A DNA stretch of 17,558 bases from assembly GCA_000433175.1 (NCBI GenBank), contig HF986679.1, forward strand, positions 7,172 to 24,729, given 5' to 3'. The notes beneath the pieces are model-generated. The model was not told the DNA's origin. It worked only from the letters and a program-made list of their open reading frames with translations, and did no database searches. Each line of letters begins with the position of its first letter. The stretch's first letter is position 1. Below, piece by piece: positions 4,029 through 16,816 of the stretch. The translations under genes were made by a program, and so were the position numbers. The DNA comes from Prevotella sp. CAG:1058 (GTDB taxonomy: Bacteria; Bacteroidota; Bacteroidia; Bacteroidales; Bacteroidaceae).

Positions 4029-5663
<1,635 letters not shown>

Positions 5664-5761
5664 TTATTTTTTGTGGTCGAAGGAGTTACAGCCATTAAGC
5701 AACCTAACCGCGGCTAACGCCACACCCCTTCAAGCCTTTTGTGTTTAATTAATATGAATGA

Positions 5762-6034
5762 TTATTTCTCGATAACTGCGAGCACGTCGCTCTGGCGCAT
5801 CATAAGATACTTCTCGCCTTCAAACTCGAGTTCAGTACCAGAGTACTTGCCGTAAAGAACTTCGTCGCCGGCTTTCAGTACCATCTCCTCGTCTTTTGTG
5901 CCCTTGCCCGTAGCAACAACCTTGCCATGCAATGGTTTCTCTTTTGCAGTATCAGGAATAATGATACCACCTATTTTCTCTTCTGCCGGTGCCGGAAGTA
6001 CCAGCACTCTGTCTGCTAATGGTTTAATGTTCAT
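5762..6034 (-). CDS. groES: Co-chaperonin GroES (Hsp10)
   Basis: A 90-residue co-chaperonin that caps the GroEL ring. The start [20 protein letters not shown], the mobile loop around [15 protein letters not shown] with its IIIP contact site for GroEL, and [34 protein letters not shown] are all typical, and the length is normal for Bacteroidota. It is the first gene of the groES-groEL operon. The start is the only good ATG, about 80 bp downstream of a -7-like element (6127-6120). No CIRCE operator is seen; instead repeated CTGACAA sites lie upstream. Confidence 0.98.
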
Positions 6035-6825: not shown

Positions 6826-6857
6826 TTTGTTTATGTCAAATTATCCATGTAATTTTG
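6826..6857 (+). promoter_or_regulatory. Promoter of the modified-peptide cluster
   Basis: TTTG (6826-6829), 20 nt, TAATTTTG (6850-6857): an excellent Bacteroidota-type promoter pointing at the radical SAM gene. The start would be near 6862-6864, leaving about 65 nt of AT-rich leader. It is the only strong plus-strand promoter I see before the run of seven same-strand genes, so it probably drives the cluster. Confidence 0.65.
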
Positions 6858-6927: not shown

Positions 6928-8799
6928 ATGAAAAAGATAATACTTAATTGGATGCCGCCAGCAATGATTAACGTGCCGTCTCCGTCAATGTCGGTACTGA
7001 AGAAATATCTTACCGTAAACGGATATGATGTTACTATAATATATTGGAACATAAAACTCCTAAAGCTCCAGCAAGATTTCTTGTGGGGGAATATGTCCGT
7101 TGGATTAGTCAATGAACTCCTCTCCGAATTGATTTTCTATAATTATTTAGCGGTCAGATTTAAAGACAGGGAAGCTTATGCCAAAGTAAAAGCTGCATTA
7201 TTAGCACTTAAGCCTAATTACATGACAGCAGATCCTTACTTATATGACAAGCATATGAAATATTATGCCCAACAGCTTGAAGATTTTATTAATGAGGAAC
7301 TAAAAACTATAAATTTTGCAGACATACTTTTTGTAGGAATGTCGGTGAATTTATATCAATGGATCTGTTCATCTATCATTGCACAAAAAATAAAAGAGAT
7401 TTCACCTAATACATCTATTATTGTCGGTGGCATCGGAACGAAAGACAGTGCTATAAGCTATTTGGAAGAGTTCAAGCAATTCGATATTGCAATTTGGGGT
7501 GAAGGGGAATATCTTTTAAAACAGATTGCAGACATTCTTGCAGGCAAGACAAATCATAGTAAACTTCTACAACTTGCCCATATAGCTTATAGGGCAAGTG
7601 AGGGTATAACAGCTTCTCAGGGGCAGGAAATTGAATACGTTGATCTCAACGACGTGAAATATTACCCTGAGTTTGATGATTTTTTAGAATTGATACCACA
7701 ACAATACGATAAATCCATCGTAATGCTTCCAATAGAAGGCAGCCGAAGCTGTCATTGGAGAAAATGTCATTTCTGTTACCTCAATTCTGGTTATAAACAT
7801 AGGTTAAAATCACCTACTAACATCAGTTCCTATATAAGAGATTTAATAAAGAAGCATGGAATTTACAAATTTGGATTTATGGATAATGACATAATATCAA
7901 ATGATTGGCAGAGATTCCATGAACTTCTTGGCGACCTAAACAATATAAAGAATGATTATCCAAAGTTTGAAATAGATTTGGCAGAAATAATTACGCAAGG
8001 AATAAATGCTGACATTATTAGAGGAATGGCTTTGGCAGGATTCTTAAATGTTCAGATCGGATATGAATCGCCAAGTAATAATTTATTAAAGAAAATAGAA
8101 AAGAAAAATACATTTGCGAGCAATTTACTTTTTATTAAGTATGCTTGCAAATACAATATTTTTGTCGTTGGGCTTAATGTTATCCGCGGATTATTAGAAG
8201 AAACCAATGTAGACATAGCTGAAGGTATAGAAAACCTGAGATTCATGAGATTCTTCTTAGGAAAAATAAGGCATGAAATGAGCAATTTGGGTATAACACA
8301 GTCAAGTAGATACTTCAAAATACCAAAGAATGAAAATTATTTTGACACAAACAATGTAATACAATACTTGCCAGCAGGCTTTATTAGTAATAAGAGTATT
8401 CAAGAATGTAAAATCGCCGAAAAAATAGCTGTACACACTAAAAATATATGGGATAATTTTAAAAATGTAGAAAAATTCTTTATTGAAAACTCATATACAT
8501 ACCAATTATATAAGACAACAGACGCAATCATATATAAAGAATATTTTAATGGAGAGCAAACAAACGAATTAGAATTTTCTTTCGATTCACTTGACTATAT
8601 AATATTAAGTAATTCAAACAAGGCTATATTTAGTTATGAGCAATTGACAAAAATCATAAGCAATAATACTGCGTATGTAAATATGACGGATTGCGAAGTA
8701 TTCAATTGCTTGGAAGAATTGAAAAAGGAAGGTATTATATATTGCACTGAAGATTATTCTGAAATTCTGACCATTATTGACCTTGAAAGCATCTTATAA
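6928..8799 (+). CDS. Radical SAM peptide maturase with B12-type N-terminal domain
   Basis: A 623-residue enzyme. Residues about 1-200 have the B12-binding-like Rossmann fold: an N-terminal ILNWMPPAMINVPSPSMSVL, then ILFVGMSVN, SIIVGGIGTKDS and FDIAIWGEGEYLLKQI. The radical SAM core follows, with cluster cysteines Cys275, Cys280 and Cys283 in SCHWRKCHFCYLNSGYKHR. Its pattern is CX4CX2C rather than the usual CX3CX2C. The CxFCxLN...RxKSP context resembles the 'RiPP maturation radical SAM protein 1' family (TIGR03975). A C-terminal 100-residue part (DCEVFNCLEELKKEGIIY) looks like a winged helix that could hold the leader peptide. It ends 2 bp before the glycosyltransferase gene and stands two genes from the small precursor. 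Likely it modifies the precursor core in the cytoplasm; methylation, crosslinking or epimerisation cannot be told apart. Base composition is AT-rich. Confidence 0.85.
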   Translation: MKKIILNWMPPAMINVPSPSMSVLKKYLTVNGYDVTIIYWNIKLLKLQQDFLWGNMSVGLVNELLSELIFYNYLAVRFKDREAYAKVKAALLALKPNYMTADPYLYDKHMKYYAQQLEDFINEELKTINFADILFVGMSVNLYQWICSSIIAQKIKEISPNTSIIVGGIGTKDSAISYLEEFKQFDIAIWGEGEYLLKQIADILAGKTNHSKLLQLAHIAYRASEGITASQGQEIEYVDLNDVKYYPEFDDFLELIPQQYDKSIVMLPIEGSRSCHWRKCHFCYLNSGYKHRLKSPTNISSYIRDLIKKHGIYKFGFMDNDIISNDWQRFHELLGDLNNIKNDYPKFEIDLAEIITQGINADIIRGMALAGFLNVQIGYESPSNNLLKKIEKKNTFASNLLFIKYACKYNIFVVGLNVIRGLLEETNVDIAEGIENLRFMRFFLGKIRHEMSNLGITQSSRYFKIPKNENYFDTNNVIQYLPAGFISNKSIQECKIAEKIAVHTKNIWDNFKNVEKFFIENSYTYQLYKTTDAIIYKEYFNGEQTNELEFSFDSLDYIILSNSNKAIFSYEQLTKIISNNTAYVNMTDCEVFNCLEELKKEGIIYCTEDYSEILTIIDLESIL

Positions 8800-8801
8800 C
8801 C

Positions 8802-9716
8802 ATGAATACGGAGCTTACAGTTATAATTCCTTTTAAAAATGAGGGAGAAGAAGTAGGAAAGACTATTCGCAGTCTGAACGATATGGCCTGCGGCAACATT
8901 AATATTATCGTTATAAACGACGCCTCCGATGACGGTTACGATTACAGCAGCATTGCATCAGAAAAAAATGTAAAATACATAATACATAAGGAAAGTTTAG
9001 GCCCTGCACAGTCACGCGCTCATGGCGTTAAACTATGCGAAACTGAATATTTCTTATTATTAGACGCTCACATGAGAGCATTAACCAAAGGATGGAATAA
9101 ATTAATCATAGAAGAACTGAAAACAGATAAAAGAGCTGTTTTTTGCTGCAAAACAGAACGTCTTTTAGATAACGATAAAATCTCTGATGGAGAATTTGGG
9201 TTAGGAGTAAATCTCAATTTTGAAGATTTATCATACAATTGGATTCAAGACCATTCATCTATTCAAGGAACAATAATGTCAATACCATGTGTCATGGGGG
9301 CGTCATATTGCACAAATAAACGTTATTGGAATAAAATTAGGGGGCTTGAGGGATTACGTTCATACGGCTATGAAGAACAACTGTTGAGCATAAAAACAAT
9401 GTTAGAAGGTGGAAACTGCTATGCGATAACAAACGTCTCTTTTGCACATAAATTCAGGACGTTCAAGGAGGTCCCATATAAAGCGTCAACTGTCGATTAT
9501 GTATTTAATCAACTTTATATTATTGAACTATTTTATCCCGTGAAATTAAAAACTAAAATTTTTAAGAAAATCAAAAGCGAAGGAGATGACAATACATTTG
9601 AAATTGCATTAAATAATTTATCTAAAATTAAAAACGAAATAATCTCTTTAAAAGAATACTATAAAGCCAACTTTTCAAGAGAGTTGGAATATATAACAGA
9701 TTTTACAAACCTCTAA
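8802..9716 (+). CDS. GT-A glycosyltransferase resembling polypeptide GalNAc-transferases
   Basis: A 304-residue GT2/GT27-like enzyme. The start ELTVIIPFKNEGEEVGKTIRSL and INDASDDG (38-45) give the nucleotide-sugar fold. LLLDAHM contains a D-x-H (Asp88, His90) in place of the usual DxD. GYEEQLLSIKTMLEGG (189-204) and FAHKFR (214-219, His216) align by eye with the GGENLE-SFR-W-CGG and GHVFR segments of animal polypeptide GalNAc-transferases, whose metal is held by just such a D-x-H plus the later His. So all three metal ligands appear kept. The C-terminus is a helical extension with no lectin domain. It lies 2 bp after the radical SAM gene and 12 bp before the Ser/Thr/Pro-rich precursor, which is the obvious acceptor. 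Donor sugar is unknown. No signal peptide, so it acts in the cytoplasm. Confidence 0.82.
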   Translation: MNTELTVIIPFKNEGEEVGKTIRSLNDMACGNINIIVINDASDDGYDYSSIASEKNVKYIIHKESLGPAQSRAHGVKLCETEYFLLLDAHMRALTKGWNKLIIEELKTDKRAVFCCKTERLLDNDKISDGEFGLGVNLNFEDLSYNWIQDHSSIQGTIMSIPCVMGASYCTNKRYWNKIRGLEGLRSYGYEEQLLSIKTMLEGGNCYAITNVSFAHKFRTFKEVPYKASTVDYVFNQLYIIELFYPVKLKTKIFKKIKSEGDDNTFEIALNNLSKIKNEIISLKEYYKANFSRELEYITDFTNL

Positions 9717-9728
9717 AAAAGAAACATT

Positions 9729-9968
9729 ATGAAAAAAAGATTCAATCTTAGTTTAGAAGAAAGGCTGGCCAATATGGACAGACTCTCCAATCAAAGGCAA
9801 ATGATGTTCAATGGAGGCTCGGAAGAATCTCAAGCTAGCACTTACGGCCCGACACAAGGGCCAACGACTCTTCCTCCACCAACATTTTCATTCGAGCCAT
9901 CACGAACATTTCCCCCATTTAAGTTTACAAATTGGGGCATAAGTGGAACTATCCCAATAAAGCTGTGA
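9729..9968 (+). CDS. Putative modified-peptide precursor with double-glycine leader, cysteine-free core
   Basis: A 79-residue protein with no recognised family. Residues 1-30 form a charged, amphipathic leader (LSLEERLANMDRLSNQ is probably helical) ending in FNGG. With Gly30 as -1, hydrophobic residues stand at -4 (Phe27), -12 (Leu19) and -15 (Met16), as in leaders cut by C39 peptidases; -7 is Gln, less usual. The predicted core (31-79) is 49 residues with 14 Ser/Thr, nine Pro, five Phe, one Tyr, one Trp and no Cys. It includes GPTQGPTTLPPPT, TFSF, SRTFPPFKF and a GISGTIPIKL end. It lies between the maturation enzymes and the export genes, which is the main reason to call it the substrate. 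Lack of Cys rules out thioether, disulphide or lanthionine chemistry. The modifications are inferred, not seen. Confidence 0.75.
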   Translation: MKKRFNLSLEERLANMDRLSNQRQMMFNGGSEESQASTYGPTQGPTTLPPPTFSFEPSRTFPPFKFTNWGISGTIPIKL

Positions 9969-9971
9969 ATT

Positions 9972-10015
9972 TTATTGCTGCAAGTATCTTGGCTTCAAAA
10001 GGCTTGCAGCAATAA
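9972..10015 (+). terminator. Stem-loop just after the precursor gene (attenuator or mRNA stabiliser)
   Basis: A perfect 13-bp inverted repeat, TTATTGCTGCAAG (9972-9984) and CTTGCAGCAATAA (10003-10015), encloses an 18-nt loop three bases after the precursor stop codon. No long T run follows, so full termination is doubtful. A hairpin in this place commonly serves partial termination or protection of an upstream mRNA, letting a precursor be made in excess over the downstream genes; that is inference here. Confidence 0.65.
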
Positions 10016-10050
10016 TTTAAACATCAATTTACAAATAATATGTTGATTCT

Positions 10051-11355
10051 ATGAAAAAAACATTTATTTTTCTGTTTATATGTATAACGATAAATTGCTA
10101 TGCTCAAAAGGCTGATTTTTACGTCTGTGAACTTGCAAACAAATTGGATTGGTTTGCACTTAACAATGAATATCCTAAGCTGAAAGATAGTGTACGGTAT
10201 GATCATATAAGGCTTTTTGCGGAAGGCATACTTTCACATTATTTCAACAGACCGCAAGAATCCATAGAAAAACTGACCGATTTAGTAAACAATCACCAAC
10301 AGGAAATTGGCACTATGACGGCGCTTAATCTTATACCGTCAATAATGCAAGATTATGAGTTCTTGGGAAAATATAAAATAATAGCTGAAAAAACAGGTTC
10401 TGTATTAGAGACTTTGAAAGGGCAACCTATTGATCTCCGTACTATACAGGATTATTACAACAGGTGCAAAGTCTTAGAAAGTTATCCTGCACAAACTATA
10501 TATAGAAAAAACAAAGACGTAACAGTTAAATTCAGCGAGAAATATGAGGGAGTATCACCATTTAAAGAAAACAAGACGATTGATAGCTTGATATACTTCC
10601 CCGTGACGTGTAACGGAAAAACTTATCAGTTCATACTTGACACAGGTGCAAAATCCACATTCCTGTCAAAACGGTTTGCCAAAGAGATTGGGGCAAAAAT
10701 GATTGAAGGATATGAAGACGAGATAGGTACTTGCGCTTTTATTGACAGTTTGCAAATAGGTGGCGGTATAACATTTAAAAATATCATAGCTGTTGTAGAT
10801 AAAGGGGGATCTCCTGGAAGGGCTGTAAACACGGATGGTGGTGTAAATGTCGATGCTATTCTCGGCATAGATTTTCTTAGATTAGTAGGGGAGATTCGGA
10901 TTGACTTTAGAAATCATACGTTAACATTCCCGTATTCGTTTACACCAAAACCACAATACGGTTCAAACATAAGAATGGATGACAGCGGAGGAATAGCATT
11001 GGAAGTAAGGGACTCAACGGGATTGCAACAAATCATATTTGACACTGGGGTGGTAGCTACAACATTCAACTATCGATATTTCAAGAAACACGAAAATGAG
11101 CTGTTGCCGCTTTTTGACAAGACAGACAAGCGTGAAATAACAGGAGGTGGACTTTCCTCATCTTATTATAGAATGGTCATGCGCGTTCCTGCGATTAAAT
11201 TTGACGCTTTTGGAAAGTCAATATCAGTCAAGGATAAATTTGTAGCATATACTCCAAATGATGATGAAAGTTGGAATGCTTTCGGAATGGACTTTGTGAA
11301 ACAATTCAATAAGGTTACGATCAACTTTAAGGACATGTTCATGACTGTGGAATAA
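10051..11355 (+). CDS. Secreted retropepsin-like aspartic protease with two DTG lobes
   Basis: A 434-residue protein. Residues 1-18 are a signal peptide (KKTFIFLFICITINCYA, cleavage expected before Gln19), so it acts in the periplasm or at the surface. Residues about 20-150 are helical, perhaps a TPR-like module. Then two similar aspartic-protease lobes follow. The first has Asp197-Thr198-Gly199 in FILDTGAKSTFLS and the flap-side LGIDFL at 271-276. The second has Asp331-Thr332-Gly333 in IIFDTGVVATTF and FGMDF at 411-415. The DTG to GxDF distances (75 and 81) are alike, so one chain carries both halves of an active site. Its place directly after the precursor suggests it processes the exported peptide or a target of it. 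That role is unproven; a self-protection role is another possibility. Confidence 0.8.
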   Translation: MKKTFIFLFICITINCYAQKADFYVCELANKLDWFALNNEYPKLKDSVRYDHIRLFAEGILSHYFNRPQESIEKLTDLVNNHQQEIGTMTALNLIPSIMQDYEFLGKYKIIAEKTGSVLETLKGQPIDLRTIQDYYNRCKVLESYPAQTIYRKNKDVTVKFSEKYEGVSPFKENKTIDSLIYFPVTCNGKTYQFILDTGAKSTFLSKRFAKEIGAKMIEGYEDEIGTCAFIDSLQIGGGITFKNIIAVVDKGGSPGRAVNTDGGVNVDAILGIDFLRLVGEIRIDFRNHTLTFPYSFTPKPQYGSNIRMDDSGGIALEVRDSTGLQQIIFDTGVVATTFNYRYFKKHENELLPLFDKTDKREITGGGLSSSYYRMVMRVPAIKFDAFGKSISVKDKFVAYTPNDDESWNAFGMDFVKQFNKVTINFKDMFMTVE

Positions 11356-11382
11356 AATCTGCGACTTATAATATAAATAGCA

Positions 11383-11988
11383 ATGAAAACCATAAGGACA
11401 CTTATACTTGCCGTCCTCGCCATTGCCGCCCAACAGGCGCAAGGGCAAACATCCTCTCTTAACGCAGGCTTCTATTACGCAACGAGACTGCAAAATGCAA
11501 AGGCGAACATACGCATGCCTGAATACATAGGGGCGAGCGTAGGCTACGAATTCTGCATAATACAGCCGTTAGGAGTGGAAATAGGCTTGGCCGTAGGGCA
11601 ATACTCACAGACTGTAGGCTACAAGGAGTACCAACACACGAGGTGCGCCCTGCGCGGCTTTGCTTTCTCGCCTTTCGTCGCTCCTGCGTTCTATGTGCCG
11701 CTCGGCAGTTGGGACAACATGCTGTTGCTGAGGAACGAGCTGGCATACGCGTTCCAAAAGCTGACGAGAAACGACAACAAGGAGGAGGTGTTCAACACGT
11801 TCGAGTGCCCTAAGAGCCAGTTTGCCTACCAAGTAGGCGTAGGCTACCGCCACATGTTCTCCGAAAACGTGTCGATGACAGCAATAGTAAATTACTCGAC
11901 GTTCAACTTCCTCCGAGGCAGCGACGGCAAGGGATTCAAAACTTCCACGCCGTTCAGCATGATAATAAAGTTCGGTTGGCATTTCTGA
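11383..11988 (+). CDS. Small outer-membrane beta-barrel protein
   Basis: A 201-residue protein with a clear signal peptide (TLILAVLAIAAQQAQG, cleavage near residue 21). The mature part alternates polar and hydrophobic residues in strand-like blocks (LNAGFYYATRL, ASVGYEFCI, GVEIGLAVGQYSQTVGY, QVGVGYRHMF, MTAIVNYSTFNFL). It ends MIIKFGWHF, the aromatic C-terminus typical of barrels recognised by the Bam machinery. Length suggests eight to ten strands. I cannot assign a function. It is not TolC-like: too short and without the helical tunnel. It sits 7 bp before the exporter gene, so it probably works with export, or as an immunity or surface partner. It is clearly richer in G+C than the genes on either side (38 of 60 bases at 11641-11700). 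Confidence 0.7.
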   Translation: MKTIRTLILAVLAIAAQQAQGQTSSLNAGFYYATRLQNAKANIRMPEYIGASVGYEFCIIQPLGVEIGLAVGQYSQTVGYKEYQHTRCALRGFAFSPFVAPAFYVPLGSWDNMLLLRNELAYAFQKLTRNDNKEEVFNTFECPKSQFAYQVGVGYRHMFSENVSMTAIVNYSTFNFLRGSDGKGFKTSTPFSMIIKFGWHF

Positions 11989-11995
11989 AATACAG

Positions 11996-14182
11996 ATGAA
12001 AGACTTTCCATTGTACACCCAACACGAGGCGATGGACTGCGGTCCTACGTGCCTGAGGATGATTGCTGCATATTACGGCAAAAGATACTCCCTGCAATAC
12101 CTGCGCGACATAAGCTATATTACGAAAGAGGGAGTATCGATGCTCGGCATAAGCGAAGCTGCCGAAAGAATTGGCCTGCACACGATTGCGGTAGAAGGGA
12201 CGATAGGAGAACTGACAGGGCAAGTTCCATTGCCGTGCATACTGCACTGGGATCAGAAGCACTTTGTCGTATTATACAAAATAAAGAAAGGAATATTCCA
12301 CGTAGCAGATCCGGCAGGCAGTAAGGTAAAGTTTAATGAGGAAGAATTTTGCGAGCATTGGCTTTGCAATGACAAGGACGGCAAAAAGTCGGGAGTAATG
12401 CTTTGCATGGAACCGACTACGGCCTTTTTCACTGCTGACGATAACGATAAGTTCAAGAAAGACAAAAACATTTTGAACCTGTTAGCATACTTGAAACCTT
12501 ACAAAAAGCTGATACTGCAAATATTCATCGGCTTGGCCACAGGCTCGCTGTTGCAACTGATACTACCGTTCACGACACAGGCTATCGTGGACTTCGGTAT
12601 AACAAACCAAGACCTAAGTTTTGTATTTCTTATGCTTATCGCACAGTCAGTGCTTGTTATAAGCAGCATATCCGTGGAATACATACGCGGATGGATTCTG
12701 CTTCATATAGGGACAAGAATAAATATCTCACTCATATCCGACTATCTTGCAAAACTGATGAGACTGCCGATAGCATATTTTGACGCAAAAATGACAGGTG
12801 ACATTCTTCAGAGGATAGGCGACCATGGAAGAATACAAACATTCCTGACAAGCACTGGGCTTAGTACATTATTTTCTATAGTGAACATTGTCATCTTTGG
12901 AGCTGTCATGTGCTTTTACGACTTGTCAATTTTCATCATCTATATTACGGCAAGCGTGATGTATGTCGGCTGGATTTGGCTCTTCATGAACCGTCGGGCA
13001 TCATTGGACCATAAGCTATTTACACAAAACGCTGCAAACCAAGGAAAGTTGGTGCAACTCATCGACGGCATGCAGGAAATAAAACTCTACACATGCGAGA
13101 ACCAAAAAAGATGGGATTGGGAGCGTATTCAAGCAAAAATCTACAAGATCAACATAAAGAGCCTTGCCTTGGCGCAATACCAGCAATCCGGCGGAATACT
13201 AATAAACCAATTGAAAAATGTCATAACAACAGCGTTCGTGGCAAGTCTCGTAATCAAAGGTGAAATCACTTTGGGCATGATGCTCTCAATACAATACATC
13301 ATAGGGCAACTTAACAGCCCGATAGACCAACTTATAGGATTTTTCCAACAATACCAAGACGCAAAACTCAGCTTTGAACGATTGCAAGACGTATACGGCA
13401 AGGAAGATGAAGATCCTGTGAAAGTAATGAAAATCCATGACATCAGAAACGATAATATTTATCTTCATAATGTTTCGTTCAAATACAACAAATTGAGTGA
13501 CTCCCCTATTATTAACAATATAACAATAACAATACCTAAAGGTAAGACAACAGCCATAGTAGGACTCAGCGGGAGTGGAAAAACCACGCTTATGAAACTC
13601 ATATTGGGTTATTATCAACCGGACAAAGGAAAAATACTGATAGGTAGTTCGGATTTGACAAACTTCAACAAAAGGGAATGGCGGAAGAAATGCGGTACCG
13701 TGATGCAGGACGGCTATATCTTTTCAGACACTATTGCTAAAAATATTGCCCCGGGAACAGAATTCATAGACGAGGAACGCATGGAAAACGCAGCGGAAAT
13801 AGCAAACATTAAAAATTTCATTGATGAATTGCCGTTGAGATACAACACAAAAATCGGGGCGGAAGGGCATGGACTCAGCATGGGACAGAAACAGCGCATA
13901 CTCATAGCACGAGCCGTGTACAAAGATCCTTATTATGTACTCCTTGATGAAGCTACGAACTCACTTGACACAAACAACGAACAATCTATAATAGAAAAAC
14001 TCAATAAATACCTTAAAGGGAAAACATCGATAATAATCGCCCATAGGTTGAGTACCGTTAGAGACGCTGACAACATATTGGTAATGGAGCATGGAGAGAT
14101 TGTAGAAAGCGGGAAACATGACGAGCTTTTAAGACAAAAAGGTGTTTATTACAGATTAGTCAAGAACCAATTGAACGTATAA
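11996..14182 (+). CDS. Peptidase-containing ABC exporter (C39 peptidase, membrane domain, ATPase)
   Basis: A 728-residue PCAT that cuts double-glycine leaders and exports the freed peptide across the inner membrane. The C39 peptidase domain (1-about 130) has Gln9, the catalytic Cys15 in MDCGPTCLRM, His89 in WDQKHFVV and Asp105 in VADPAG. The membrane domain (about 150-440) is a type I exporter fold with GSLLQLILPFTTQAIVDFGI. The ATPase has the Walker A GLSGSGKTT (523-531, Lys529), signature LSMGQ (627-631), Walker B VLLDEAT (Asp651, Glu652) and switch His683. All catalytic residues are present, so the enzyme should be active. It starts 7 bp after the barrel gene and ends 6 bp before the HlyD gene. 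The precursor at 9729-9968, with its Gly-Gly at 29-30, is the natural substrate. The C39 part is richer in G+C than the ATPase part. Confidence 0.95.
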   Translation: MKDFPLYTQHEAMDCGPTCLRMIAAYYGKRYSLQYLRDISYITKEGVSMLGISEAAERIGLHTIAVEGTIGELTGQVPLPCILHWDQKHFVVLYKIKKGIFHVADPAGSKVKFNEEEFCEHWLCNDKDGKKSGVMLCMEPTTAFFTADDNDKFKKDKNILNLLAYLKPYKKLILQIFIGLATGSLLQLILPFTTQAIVDFGITNQDLSFVFLMLIAQSVLVISSISVEYIRGWILLHIGTRINISLISDYLAKLMRLPIAYFDAKMTGDILQRIGDHGRIQTFLTSTGLSTLFSIVNIVIFGAVMCFYDLSIFIIYITASVMYVGWIWLFMNRRASLDHKLFTQNAANQGKLVQLIDGMQEIKLYTCENQKRWDWERIQAKIYKINIKSLALAQYQQSGGILINQLKNVITTAFVASLVIKGEITLGMMLSIQYIIGQLNSPIDQLIGFFQQYQDAKLSFERLQDVYGKEDEDPVKVMKIHDIRNDNIYLHNVSFKYNKLSDSPIINNITITIPKGKTTAIVGLSGSGKTTLMKLILGYYQPDKGKILIGSSDLTNFNKREWRKKCGTVMQDGYIFSDTIAKNIAPGTEFIDEERMENAAEIANIKNFIDELPLRYNTKIGAEGHGLSMGQKQRILIARAVYKDPYYVLLDEATNSLDTNNEQSIIEKLNKYLKGKTSIIIAHRLSTVRDADNILVMEHGEIVESGKHDELLRQKGVYYRLVKNQLNV

Positions 14183-14188
14183 ACGAAT

Positions 14189-15478
14189 ATGAAAAGCCTA
14201 GGCAAAATGAAGAATGCTTATAGCGACGATGTGAAAGACATTTTGTCCATGCCCCCAAGTTCTTTAACAAGATGGGGGTCAACAGTAATATTCATTATCA
14301 TTGTAACTCTTACTGTCGGATGTTTCATAATAAAATACCCTGACACCATATCATGCCAGGCAACAATATCGCCCAATGACCCTCCTATTTGGATTGTATC
14401 AAAATATACAGGGAAAATAAAGAACTTATACGTTAAAGACCAACAACATGTAAACAAAGATGAAATTATTGCTGTAATAGAAAATCCGGCAGAAACAAAA
14501 GACGTGTTAACAATCGATTCTTTCACAAAAAGTATCAAGATTAATGAAACGCCCATAAACACTATAAAAAAAGACTTACAAATAGGAGACATTCAAGAAA
14601 GTTATAACAACCTGCTAAAATCTATTATTAACTACAATAATTTTATAAACAACAACTTGTATGACCAACAAATAACTGCACAGGAAAAACAAATCAAGCC
14701 TTACAATGATTATGTGTCATCCGTAGCGAAGCAAGTGGAATTAGGAAACAAACAAAACTCGATAGAAACAGTAAATTATCAAAGGGAGAAAGACTTGCAC
14801 GACAAAGGACTTACATCAACAGCGGACTTAGAAAATGAAGAGAAAAATCTAATCAACACCCAAATTAATCTTGCACAAGCTAAAAGCACATTGGCAAATG
14901 CAAAGATACAAGCCGCTACAGTTGAGAGCAACATATCGGAACTGCAAGTCAGGAAAGAACAAGAAAGAAGAGATATAACAACAACTTTGGAGAATGCCGT
15001 CAAGAGTCTAAAAAATTCCATCACCACATGGAAACAAACTTTTGCGTTGATAAGCCCCATCGACGGAATCGTTTCATACAACAATGTATGGAAAGAAAAC
15101 CAAACAATCTCGCAAGGAGAAAAAGCATTCGCCATCACCCGTACAAATAAAAGCTCATGCATAGTGAAAGCAAAGATTCCCATCACGGGAATTGGCAAAG
15201 TTAGAAAAGGGAATAAAGTCAATATAATATTAGATGGCTATCCTCACATGGAATTTGGATATTTGAAAGGCGAAGTGTTATCAATTTCTCCTATGTTCGA
15301 TGACAACGGCTATACTGCAACAATCGATATAAAGAGCGAAACAACAACATATGGGAAGAAAATACCATTAGACAAAACTTTAGCAGGAACAGCAGAAATA
15401 ATTACAGACGATTTAAGTATAGCCATAAGACTATTAGCACCTTTAAGATATTTCTTCAAACATAACATAGAGACGTAA
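14189..15478 (+). CDS. HlyD-family membrane fusion protein (export adaptor)
   Basis: A 429-residue periplasmic adaptor. It has a short cytoplasmic N-terminus, one membrane helix at about 31-49 (STVIFIIIVTLTVGCFIIK), a first lipoyl half-motif (VSKYTGKIKNLYVKDQQHVNKDEIIAVIENP), then a long charged, Gln/Lys/Glu-rich coiled-coil hairpin (about 140-280). The second lipoyl half follows (LISPIDGIVSYNNVWKENQTISQGEKAFAI), then the beta-barrel domain. This is the normal layout for the adaptor that joins a PCAT to an outer-membrane channel. It follows the exporter by 6 bp and is probably the last cluster gene. A TolC-type partner is not in the window and must be supplied from elsewhere. Confidence 0.92.
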   Translation: MKSLGKMKNAYSDDVKDILSMPPSSLTRWGSTVIFIIIVTLTVGCFIIKYPDTISCQATISPNDPPIWIVSKYTGKIKNLYVKDQQHVNKDEIIAVIENPAETKDVLTIDSFTKSIKINETPINTIKKDLQIGDIQESYNNLLKSIINYNNFINNNLYDQQITAQEKQIKPYNDYVSSVAKQVELGNKQNSIETVNYQREKDLHDKGLTSTADLENEEKNLINTQINLAQAKSTLANAKIQAATVESNISELQVRKEQERRDITTTLENAVKSLKNSITTWKQTFALISPIDGIVSYNNVWKENQTISQGEKAFAITRTNKSSCIVKAKIPITGIGKVRKGNKVNIILDGYPHMEFGYLKGEVLSISPMFDDNGYTATIDIKSETTTYGKKIPLDKTLAGTAEIITDDLSIAIRLLAPLRYFFKHNIET

Positions 15479-15524
15479 AAGATATCAAATTAATTATTCT
15501 TATTTCACATTTTGAAGAAGACAG

Positions 15525-15555
15525 TCTGTTATTCCAACGATATTTTGTAAGTTTG
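15525..15555 (+). promoter_or_regulatory. Promoter of pncB
   Basis: TAAGTTTG (15548-15555) is an exact TAnnTTTG box; 19 nt upstream lies TCTG (15525-15528), three of four matches to TTTG. The start would fall near 15561, about 50 nt before pncB. I see no hairpin terminator between the HlyD gene and this promoter, so some read-through from the cluster is possible. Confidence 0.6.
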
Positions 15556-15613
15556 CAGAATAATAAGAATTTTTCTGTTTTTATTTCAAACCGGCATGAA
15601 TGAATAAATCACC

Positions 15614-16816
15614 ATGGAACAAATAATAAGACATTTTACTGACGACGACCTTTATAAATTTACCATGTGCTGCGCCGTGATTGACAACTTTCCACGCGCG
15701 CAAGTAAAATACATATTCACAGACAGGGACGACACGGTATATCCGGAAGGTTTCGCCACAGAACTTGAGAAGCAGATTGCCGCTCTTGAGGATGTGGTGA
15801 TAACCGAAGACGAGATTGACTTCATGCGCCGCAGGTGCTATTACCTGCCTGAATGGTTTTTCAATTATCTAAAAGGATTCCGCTTCAACCGCCATTGGGC
15901 AAAGGCATGGCAGGACGACGAAGGACACCTGCACGTCGAGTTTGAAGGCAGCTGGGCCGACACGATATTCCTTGAGGTGAAAGTGCTTGCCATAATCTCT
16001 GACCTGTTCTATGAAATGACGGGACAGGACAAGCTGTTTGATTACGACTCATATTACACCAAGACGTACAACAAAGCAGAGCGTCTGCTGCAGGCCGGCT
16101 GCGTGTTCAGCGACTTCGGCACGCGCCGCCGGGCGTCGTTCAAGGCAGAGGACGTGGTCGTAAGGGCGATGAAAGACTGCTACAACAGCCGCGAATGGCC
16201 GGGCAAGTTTGTAGGCACGAGCAACGTCTATCTTGCAATGAAGCACGACGTGGTGCCCGTTGGCACGATGGCTCACGAGTTTGTATGCGCCATAGGCGGC
16301 ATGTACGGCCCGCAGATGGCCAACAACATAGCGATGAACTCGTGGCGAAACACGTTCCGCGGTGCGCTCGGCACTTACCTTTACGACAGTTTCGGATGGA
16401 ACATCTTCAACCTGAACTTCTCTGAAGACTTCGCAAACCTGTTCAAAGGACTGCGCATAGACAGCGGCGACAACCGCGAACAGCTTATGAGAATAGTTGA
16501 AAAATACCGCTCGTTCGGCATCGACCCCAAGTCAAAACAGGTGATATTCAGCAACGCCCTGGACACCGACGCGGCAATAGAGATACAGAAGTTTGCTAAA
16601 GACTACTGCCAACCTTCATTCGGCATAGGCACCCACTTCACAAATGATTTCGAGGGAGTGAAGCCGATGAACATCGTAATAAAGCTAGTCGCGGCAAAGA
16701 TAACCGAAGCATGGACATTCTATAACGACACGTGCAAGCTGAGCGAAGACGAAGGCAAGCATGTAGGCAAGCCTGAAGTGGTAAAGCGGTTCATGCAGGC
16801 GCTGAACATGATTTGA
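15614..16816 (+). CDS. pncB: Nicotinate phosphoribosyltransferase
   Basis: PncB joins nicotinate and PRPP, with ATP hydrolysis, to nicotinate mononucleotide in the NAD salvage pathway (cytoplasm). The 400-residue protein has the family start IIRHFTDDDLYKFTMCCAV, then FSDFGTRRRASF (165-176), GTSNVYLA (201-208), and the phosphorylated His in VGTMAHEF (His221). RIDSGDN (nicotinate and phosphate contacts) and FGIGTHFTND come later. Length is normal for the bacterial PncB. It has its own promoter, ends before a strong hairpin, and returns to the higher G+C of the conserved flank, so it is a core gene bordering the accessory cluster. Confidence 0.97.
   Translation: MEQIIRHFTDDDLYKFTMCCAVIDNFPRAQVKYIFTDRDDTVYPEGFATELEKQIAALEDVVITEDEIDFMRRRCYYLPEWFFNYLKGFRFNRHWAKAWQDDEGHLHVEFEGSWADTIFLEVKVLAIISDLFYEMTGQDKLFDYDSYYTKTYNKAERLLQAGCVFSDFGTRRRASFKAEDVVVRAMKDCYNSREWPGKFVGTSNVYLAMKHDVVPVGTMAHEFVCAIGGMYGPQMANNIAMNSWRNTFRGALGTYLYDSFGWNIFNLNFSEDFANLFKGLRIDSGDNREQLMRIVEKYRSFGIDPKSKQVIFSNALDTDAAIEIQKFAKDYCQPSFGIGTHFTNDFEGVKPMNIVIKLVAAKITEAWTFYNDTCKLSEDEGKHVGKPEVVKRFMQALNMI

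Follow-up and report, generated by a model that had tools for sequence, protein, structure and literature searches.

A probable peptide operon of Prevotella sp. CAG:1058 joining a B12-type radical SAM enzyme with a GalNAc-transferase-like enzyme

Introduction

Which product is made by a run of seven genes in Prevotella sp. CAG:1058, in which a radical S-adenosylmethionine (SAM) enzyme, a glycosyltransferase and a small peptide with a Gly-Gly (GG) leader stand side by side? The genes lie in a stretch of 17,558 nucleotides (assembly GCA_000433175.1, contig HF986679.1, positions 7,172 to 24,729), here called the window. Our analysis indicates that they probably form an operon for a ribosomally synthesized and post-translationally modified peptide (RiPP). 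The peptide would be radical-modified (probably C-methylated) and O-glycosylated, exported by a C39 exporter with a HlyD adaptor, and trimmed by an aspartic protease. The firm basis is formed by the gene content, the precursor homology, the predicted folds, the catalytic residues and the recurrence of radical SAM enzyme, transferase and precursor; each chemical step and the role of the peptide we infer from these.

Results

The original prediction, made from the letters of the window, had described seven same-strand genes with short gaps. All open reading frames, strands and gaps could be verified: the seven frames are contiguous on the plus strand, with successive gaps of 2, 12, 82, 27, 7 and 6 nt (Table 1). 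Pfam agrees with the gene families named there for six of the seven, including both export genes, C39 and HlyD; for the peptide no family match was obtained. The precursor had been claimed to be cysteine-free with a GG leader, and Gly-Gly at residues 29-30 and the lack of Cys were confirmed.

A genome scan with a profile of the radical SAM enzyme detected 21 loci. Genes of related loci (L numbers) were called by script as longest frames of at least 40 aa, and GG peptides were chosen by eye. In a tree of 22 rows, from which the truncated L020 and L045 were left out, the window groups with L001, L002, L003 and a Bacteroides fragilis protein (support 100/99). Radical SAM enzyme, transferase and precursor are encoded together in one run in all four loci of this clade, window included. 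The protease is found in three of them, the C39 exporter in two, HlyD and barrel in the window alone. Some of these absences may be false, because L001 and L003 stop at contig ends. The radical SAM gene of L003 (10001-12069) is split into two frames of 565 and 123 aa, by a true break or an assembly error. Outside the clade, L010 also carries transferase and precursor, the transferase being fused to a LanC-like domain, and L005 and L021 encode radical SAM enzyme, protease and precursor. The L010 fusion (285-2267) lies in a B12-type radical SAM cluster; in its CHG site His-Gly is kept and Cys is replaced by Met.

With a profile of seven precursors, 25 proteins were found at E <= 10 among 4329 candidates, and 24 of them, the window's own included, reach E <= 2.8e-7. 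Because of these homologues the precursor frame is not a chance frame. A large share of them are nearly identical variants from Alistipes, and some are truncated, so that fewer independent lineages are represented, namely the window type, Mediterranea (two), Bacteroides L003, Alistipes, Prevotellaceae L010 and Tannerellaceae L021. In an alignment of 23 of the 24 strong matches (P0203 left out) G29-G30 is invariant. The window peptide does not qualify for TIGR04149, the family of GG radical SAM-modified RiPP precursors, which two of the 23 aligned members match (best E 3.5e-5). Compared with P0218 and P0220, its leader and first core half are nearly identical and its C-terminal part differs. 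This pattern of like leaders and variable C-termini is the one expected of a RiPP core. Of the 49 core residues of the window peptide, 14 are Ser or Thr and 9 are Pro; the last residue is Leu, while 17 of 20 tabulated cores end with Phe (P0203, P0207, P0215, P0219 and P0225 left out). Ser and Thr make up 24-35% of the cores in the four clade loci, and 14% and 19% in L005 and L021, where the transferase is missing; these numbers are too small for a statistical test.

Directly behind the precursor stop an RNA hairpin is predicted in six of seven loci, window included (z -5.1 to -8.0), and none in L003 (-0.46). The z-scores refer to segments picked after a first fold; L003 was folded whole, and a too short window segment gave -2.95. 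Since further cluster genes follow downstream in the window, L001 and L010, the hairpin may set the ratio of precursor to enzyme mRNA.

For the radical SAM enzyme, Pfam gave PF04055 with 44.2 bits and the B12-binding PF02310 with only 20.0 bits (cut-off 32.1). The predicted fold consists of an N-terminal Rossmann-type part and a radical SAM barrel, as in TsrM and OxsB. Judged from this model, the enzyme is of the cobalamin type, with putative cobalamin binding and methylation. The usual cysteine spacing of radical SAM enzymes is CX3CX2C. Here the Fe-S motif reads C275-x4-C280-x2-C283 (window 7750-7776), and all 36 aligned rows share the CX4CX2C spacing; on sequence grounds the enzyme falls into a separate, conserved family. 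The strand and helix order of domain 523-615 weakly resembles a RiPP recognition element (RRE). Nothing convincing was found for this domain in Pfam, and a PDB profile search returned five matches at E 0.31-0.33, four RAD21 chains and one N-terminal part of the radical SAM protein 5wgg. Alignment with Bacteroidales PqqD proteins by hhalign gave a probability of 15 (14 chosen frames, of which L114 was apparently a wrong choice).

The transferase is assigned by Pfam to GT2 (PF00535, 66.4 bits). Its predicted structure has the GT27 catalytic-domain fold, and all 29 listed polypeptide N-acetylgalactosamine (GalNAc)-transferase entries outrank every other transferase by at least 6 Z units. D88-A-H90 and H216 correspond to the metal-binding Asp, His and His of GALNT1, residues named in the available part of PMC4202792. 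This DxH...H site is kept in all 32 aligned rows. The protein stops at the end of the catalytic domain and has no ricin-type lectin domain; it may therefore work like GT27 but is not counted among the full members.

MftF and SunS-type enzymes transfer sugars by a GT2-like route. It is conceivable, if the less probable case, that the transferase of the same RiPP operon adds glucose or another sugar in this way and that the mucin-like label describes a fold relationship only. The plain GT2 assignment fits this, as do the best of ten NCBIfam matches (MftF, 41.9 bits against a cut-off of 280, residues 4-108 only) and the replacement of GALNT1 N320 by E192 and W316 by Y188. The structural ranking of the GalNAc-transferases and the fully kept metal site argue against it.

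The transferase gene was found at nine places (window, L001, L002, L003, L010, L030, L031, L032 and a remnant in L033), and at seven of them a GG peptide lies within about 3 kb. None was found at L031; in L033 there is a fragment, with an aspartic protease gene some 6 kb away. This B. fragilis Q1F2 region (L033:325-8221), where an aspartic protease relative is encoded and the transferase remnant contains a stop, is perhaps a decayed cluster. Distant transferase homologues with 32-33% identity occur in Pseudoalteromonas (P0188, P0191). GT27 labels occur in gut metagenome surveys (available parts of PMC8254964 and PMC10671698), and RREs fused to PF00535 transferases are mentioned in the available text of PMC12710340.

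The first-lobe motif is D[TS]G in all eight full-length protease rows, window included; the second lobe carries DTG or DSG in seven of them and DMG in L008. The exporter combines C39 peptidase, membrane and ABC domains in a single protein, as in peptidase-containing ABC transporters (PCATs), and retains the DCGPTC motif. An unlikely arrangement is that maturation or leader removal depends mainly on the aspartic protease, with C39/HlyD serving chiefly for export. The protease gene adjoins the radical SAM gene in the window, L001, L002, L005, L008, L010 and L021, with its N-terminal part in L004, and only one of these seven other loci (L001) has a C39-ABC match within the available DNA. Against this stand the GG site of the precursor and the intact C39 motif; moreover, several of these loci are cut off by a contig end, and their genomes may encode C39 exporters at other sites. 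In the available text of a review on RiPP leader proteases (PMC10885120) the term aspart- occurs once, within a reference.

The radical SAM gene is paired with C39-ABC in L007, L011, L012, L013, L014 and L019. Short GG-type peptides were seen in the first four; in L007 and L011 they have GG-Lys and adjoin the radical SAM gene. A large TonB-receptor-like outer-membrane barrel stands beside radical SAM family members and C39-ABC in L007, L011 and L014, perhaps for export plus receptor or immunity. The small barrel of the window had no match in the 26 related loci, where divergence could hide relatives. A 31% relative (L135:4243-4812) lies a few kb from a nicotinate phosphoribosyltransferase (NAPRT) gene in a region without the cluster. 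For both reasons the barrel may not be part of the system.

Further genes for sugar chemistry were found in related clusters. L001 (4697-16769) holds a one-strand run of LanC-like, GT7-like, GT2, GT10 fucosyltransferase, DUF2264, radical SAM, aspartic protease, GT27-like, precursor and C39-ABC genes, a possible case of multi-step glycan assembly on a RiPP. Its Glyco_transf_7C-like label is taken from 51% identity to an L002 protein, itself PF02709 at 25.7 bits. An NAD-epimerase lies close by in L010, and L032 encodes a Core-2/I-branching-type domain fused to GT2, plus GT4. Genes for sugar chemistry thus accompany these peptides repeatedly; in the window, only the presumed initiating enzyme is present. 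L030 (7029-17001) combines a GT27-like transferase with a weak LanC-like extension (18.1 bits, below cut-off), a LanB N-terminal dehydratase domain, GT4, a GG peptide and C39-ABC nearby, and is possibly a glycosylated lanthipeptide-type cluster; LanB is not reported in the available account of the Bacteroidales set of PMC10352776. The CHG motif is missing in all four free-standing LanC-like proteins of related loci, in agreement with the zinc ligands missing from LanC-like proteins of other Bacteroidales clusters (available part of PMC10352776).

A wider reading is held tentatively: a bacterial mucin-type system, in which the GalNAc-transferase homologue would start Ser/Thr O-glycosylation on a secreted cobalamin-radical SAM-modified peptide. 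In related clusters the glycan would be extended by the GT7-like enzyme and GT10 fucosyltransferase of L001 or the Core-2/I-branching-type enzyme of L032. If so, gut Bacteroidota make small exported mucin-like glycopeptides, which could be antimicrobials, signals or host-glycan mimics.

The genes flanking the cluster are housekeeping genes. L010 lies in G004, a Prevotellaceae metagenome-assembled genome; across 348 genomes of its family, the NAPRT gene of the window reaches no more than 77% DNA identity. In an empty-site comparison, six NAPRT regions of the Prevotellaceae-type group were all without groES/groEL, and groEL lay on contigs other than the NAPRT contig in nine of nine genomes; the insertion site is therefore not definable. 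The promoter motif, a consensus that we take to be of the Bacteroides type, has three matches on both strands of the window (0.49 expected; at least three in 4 of 200 shuffles). A promoter and terminator scan of 9700-15700 gave counts near those of shuffles (24 vs 17.8 and 5 vs 5.1), and comparison of the window with Rfam gave no known structured RNA at gathering scores.

Table 1 Features of the cluster and its flanks, in window positions
Feature	Position	Strand	Remarks
groEL/groES	4029-6034	-	upstream of cluster; named from translation alone
Promoter candidate, Bacteroides-type, TTTG-N20-TAATTTTG	6826..6857	+	70 nt 5' of first gene
B12-type radical SAM enzyme, 623 aa	6928..8799	+	predicted: residues 1-522 cobalamin-radical SAM fold; 523-615 small C-terminal domain
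GT27-like glycosyltransferase, 304 aa	8802..9716	+	polypeptide GalNAc-transferase catalytic domain (predicted), without lectin domain
Precursor peptide, 79 aa	9729..9968	+	leader 1-30 ending Gly-Gly; core 31-79; no Cys
RNA hairpin (predicted)	9972..10015	+	directly 3' of precursor stop; -21.5 kcal/mol, z -5.25; no clear T-run
Aspartic (retropepsin-like) protease	10051..11355	+	two DTG motifs; signal-peptide-like N-terminus by eye; PF13650 47.2 bits
Small outer-membrane beta-barrel protein, 201 aa	11383..11988	+	PF13505 34.1 bits
C39 peptidase-containing ABC exporter (PCAT)	11996..14182	+	Peptidase_C39 115.7 bits and ABC domains
HlyD-type periplasmic adaptor	14189..15478	+	HlyD_3 59.7 bits
NAPRT	15614-16816		downstream of cluster

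A plasmid-borne or virus-borne cluster and a defence system were rejected. A search with the transferase matched 48 plasmid records, none of which covers 80% of the query, with 23-24% identity among the matches listed. The radical SAM enzyme is encoded in none of 70 pattern-matching stretches of viral contigs. The transferase matches 59 viral loci, mostly by residues 1 to 90-125 only; the longest match (L047) has 29% identity over residues 5-297. Run on four cluster proteins for defence systems, padloc gave no match for radical SAM enzyme, transferase and barrel; the protease had two PDC-M08B matches, both weak and partial, with 33.6 bits for the better one.

Discussion

In the proposed RiPP pathway a single transcript would yield the 79-residue precursor, and its GG leader would be bound by the enzymes. 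The cobalamin-type enzyme would introduce a radical modification into the core, most likely a C-methylation, as its fold and nearest family suggest. The GT27-like enzyme would transfer a sugar, GalNAc or another N-acetylhexosamine or hexose, from a nucleotide sugar to Ser/Thr of the Pro-rich core; fold, metal site and core composition point to this. From the families present, the C39 domain would cleave after Gly-Gly, and the core would leave the cell through ABC exporter, HlyD and a TolC-like channel whose gene lies at another site. Trimming of the peptide, or an action on its release, might be the task of the aspartic protease, which is probably located in the periplasm.

The original prediction held in part. 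The RiPP cluster is borne out by tailoring enzymes next to a precursor in which the leader is conserved and the core varies, and the predicted fold fits the proposed B12-type radical SAM architecture. The GalNAc-transferase-like assignment was strengthened beyond what the earlier sequence-only reading allowed. The prediction would have suffered from a missing or unconserved 79-residue frame in related loci; a homologue was found in L001, L002, L003, L005, L010 and L021. Of the expected co-occurrence, the three-gene core recurs throughout the clade and the full seven-gene set does not.

Three points weigh against the proposed pathway. A fixed seven-gene system is not supported, as only radical SAM enzyme, transferase and precursor recur in all four clade loci and HlyD and barrel were seen in the window alone. 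The genomes of L005 and L021 have no transferase match at E <= 1e-8 (L021 only a weak one of 25%). The L010 core, with a transferase, contains only 9% Ser and Thr, against the trend for a Ser/Thr target. That the radical SAM enzyme alone modifies the peptide, the transferase having another acceptor or lost function, would agree with L005, L021 and the transferase locus L031 without RiPP context, and is quite improbable given a transferase gene that lies 2 nt after the radical SAM gene and 12 nt before the precursor gene in the window, its recurrence in all four clade loci, its LanC-like fusion in L010 (weakly matched in L030) and its intact metal-site residues.

The cluster draws attention to a bacterial family with a GalNAc-transferase catalytic core, genetically linked to likely peptide substrates. 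Mucin-type initiation on ribosomal peptides in bacteria, and radical and glycosyl modifications on one exported peptide, become testable questions, and the transferase could be used as a lectin-free tool for glycosylating peptides.

Among known systems, the animal and protist polypeptide GalNAc-transferases (CAZy GT27) have a catalytic fold that spans the whole window protein and the same DxH and distant His ligands, at 15-19% identity in structural alignments. In contrast to them, the window enzyme is bacterial, lacks the lectin domain and sits in a RiPP operon. For the radical SAM enzyme the closest family is TIGR03975 (rSAM_ocin_1, RiPP maturation radical SAM C-methyltransferase), matched over residues 4-466 with 152 bits, below the cut-off of 281.85.

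Glycocins are SunS-type S-glycosylated bacteriocins. They share the idea of an exported glycopeptide, but a SunS-type glycocin was rejected, with no Cys in the core and no S-glycosyltransferase name among the ten NCBIfam families that the transferase matched. For B. fragilis, a putative glycocin locus is mentioned in the available part of PMC4922554, and GG-type class I lanthipeptide leaders in Bacteroidetes are described in that of PMC7268733.

No RiPP cluster with a B12-type radical SAM enzyme and a GalNAc-transferase-like enzyme was found in the searched literature, which excludes most subscription journals and nearly all preprints. Mycofactocin (MftC and MftF; available part of PMC7491314) is a precedent for the pairing: in that pathway a radical SAM enzyme alters a ribosomal peptide, and a GT2-family enzyme glycosylates it. 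Its product differs in being a redox cofactor, formed from Val-Tyr at the C-terminus, and the description includes no GG leader or C39 exporter; the window transferase failed the MftF cut-off, so the cluster was rejected as a mycofactocin locus. Bacteroidales RiPP clusters with radical SAM, LanC-like and glycosyltransferase genes, GG precursors and PCATs have been reported (Fernandez-Cantos 2023, PMC10352776). According to the available text, they share order, GG leaders, C39 exporters and radical SAM enzymes with the window, and some areas join radical SAM enzymes, LanC-like proteins without zinc ligands and a peptide S-glycosyltransferase annotation. They differ in that the LanC-bearing clusters have pseudo-radical SAM partners, and the terms B12, aspart- and GalNAc do not occur in that text. 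Since mycofactocin and these mixed-enzyme GG/PCAT clusters precede it, as far as the available texts go, the window system is a new variant and not a new kind; its new element, within the searched literature, seems to be the GalNAc-transferase-type enzyme.
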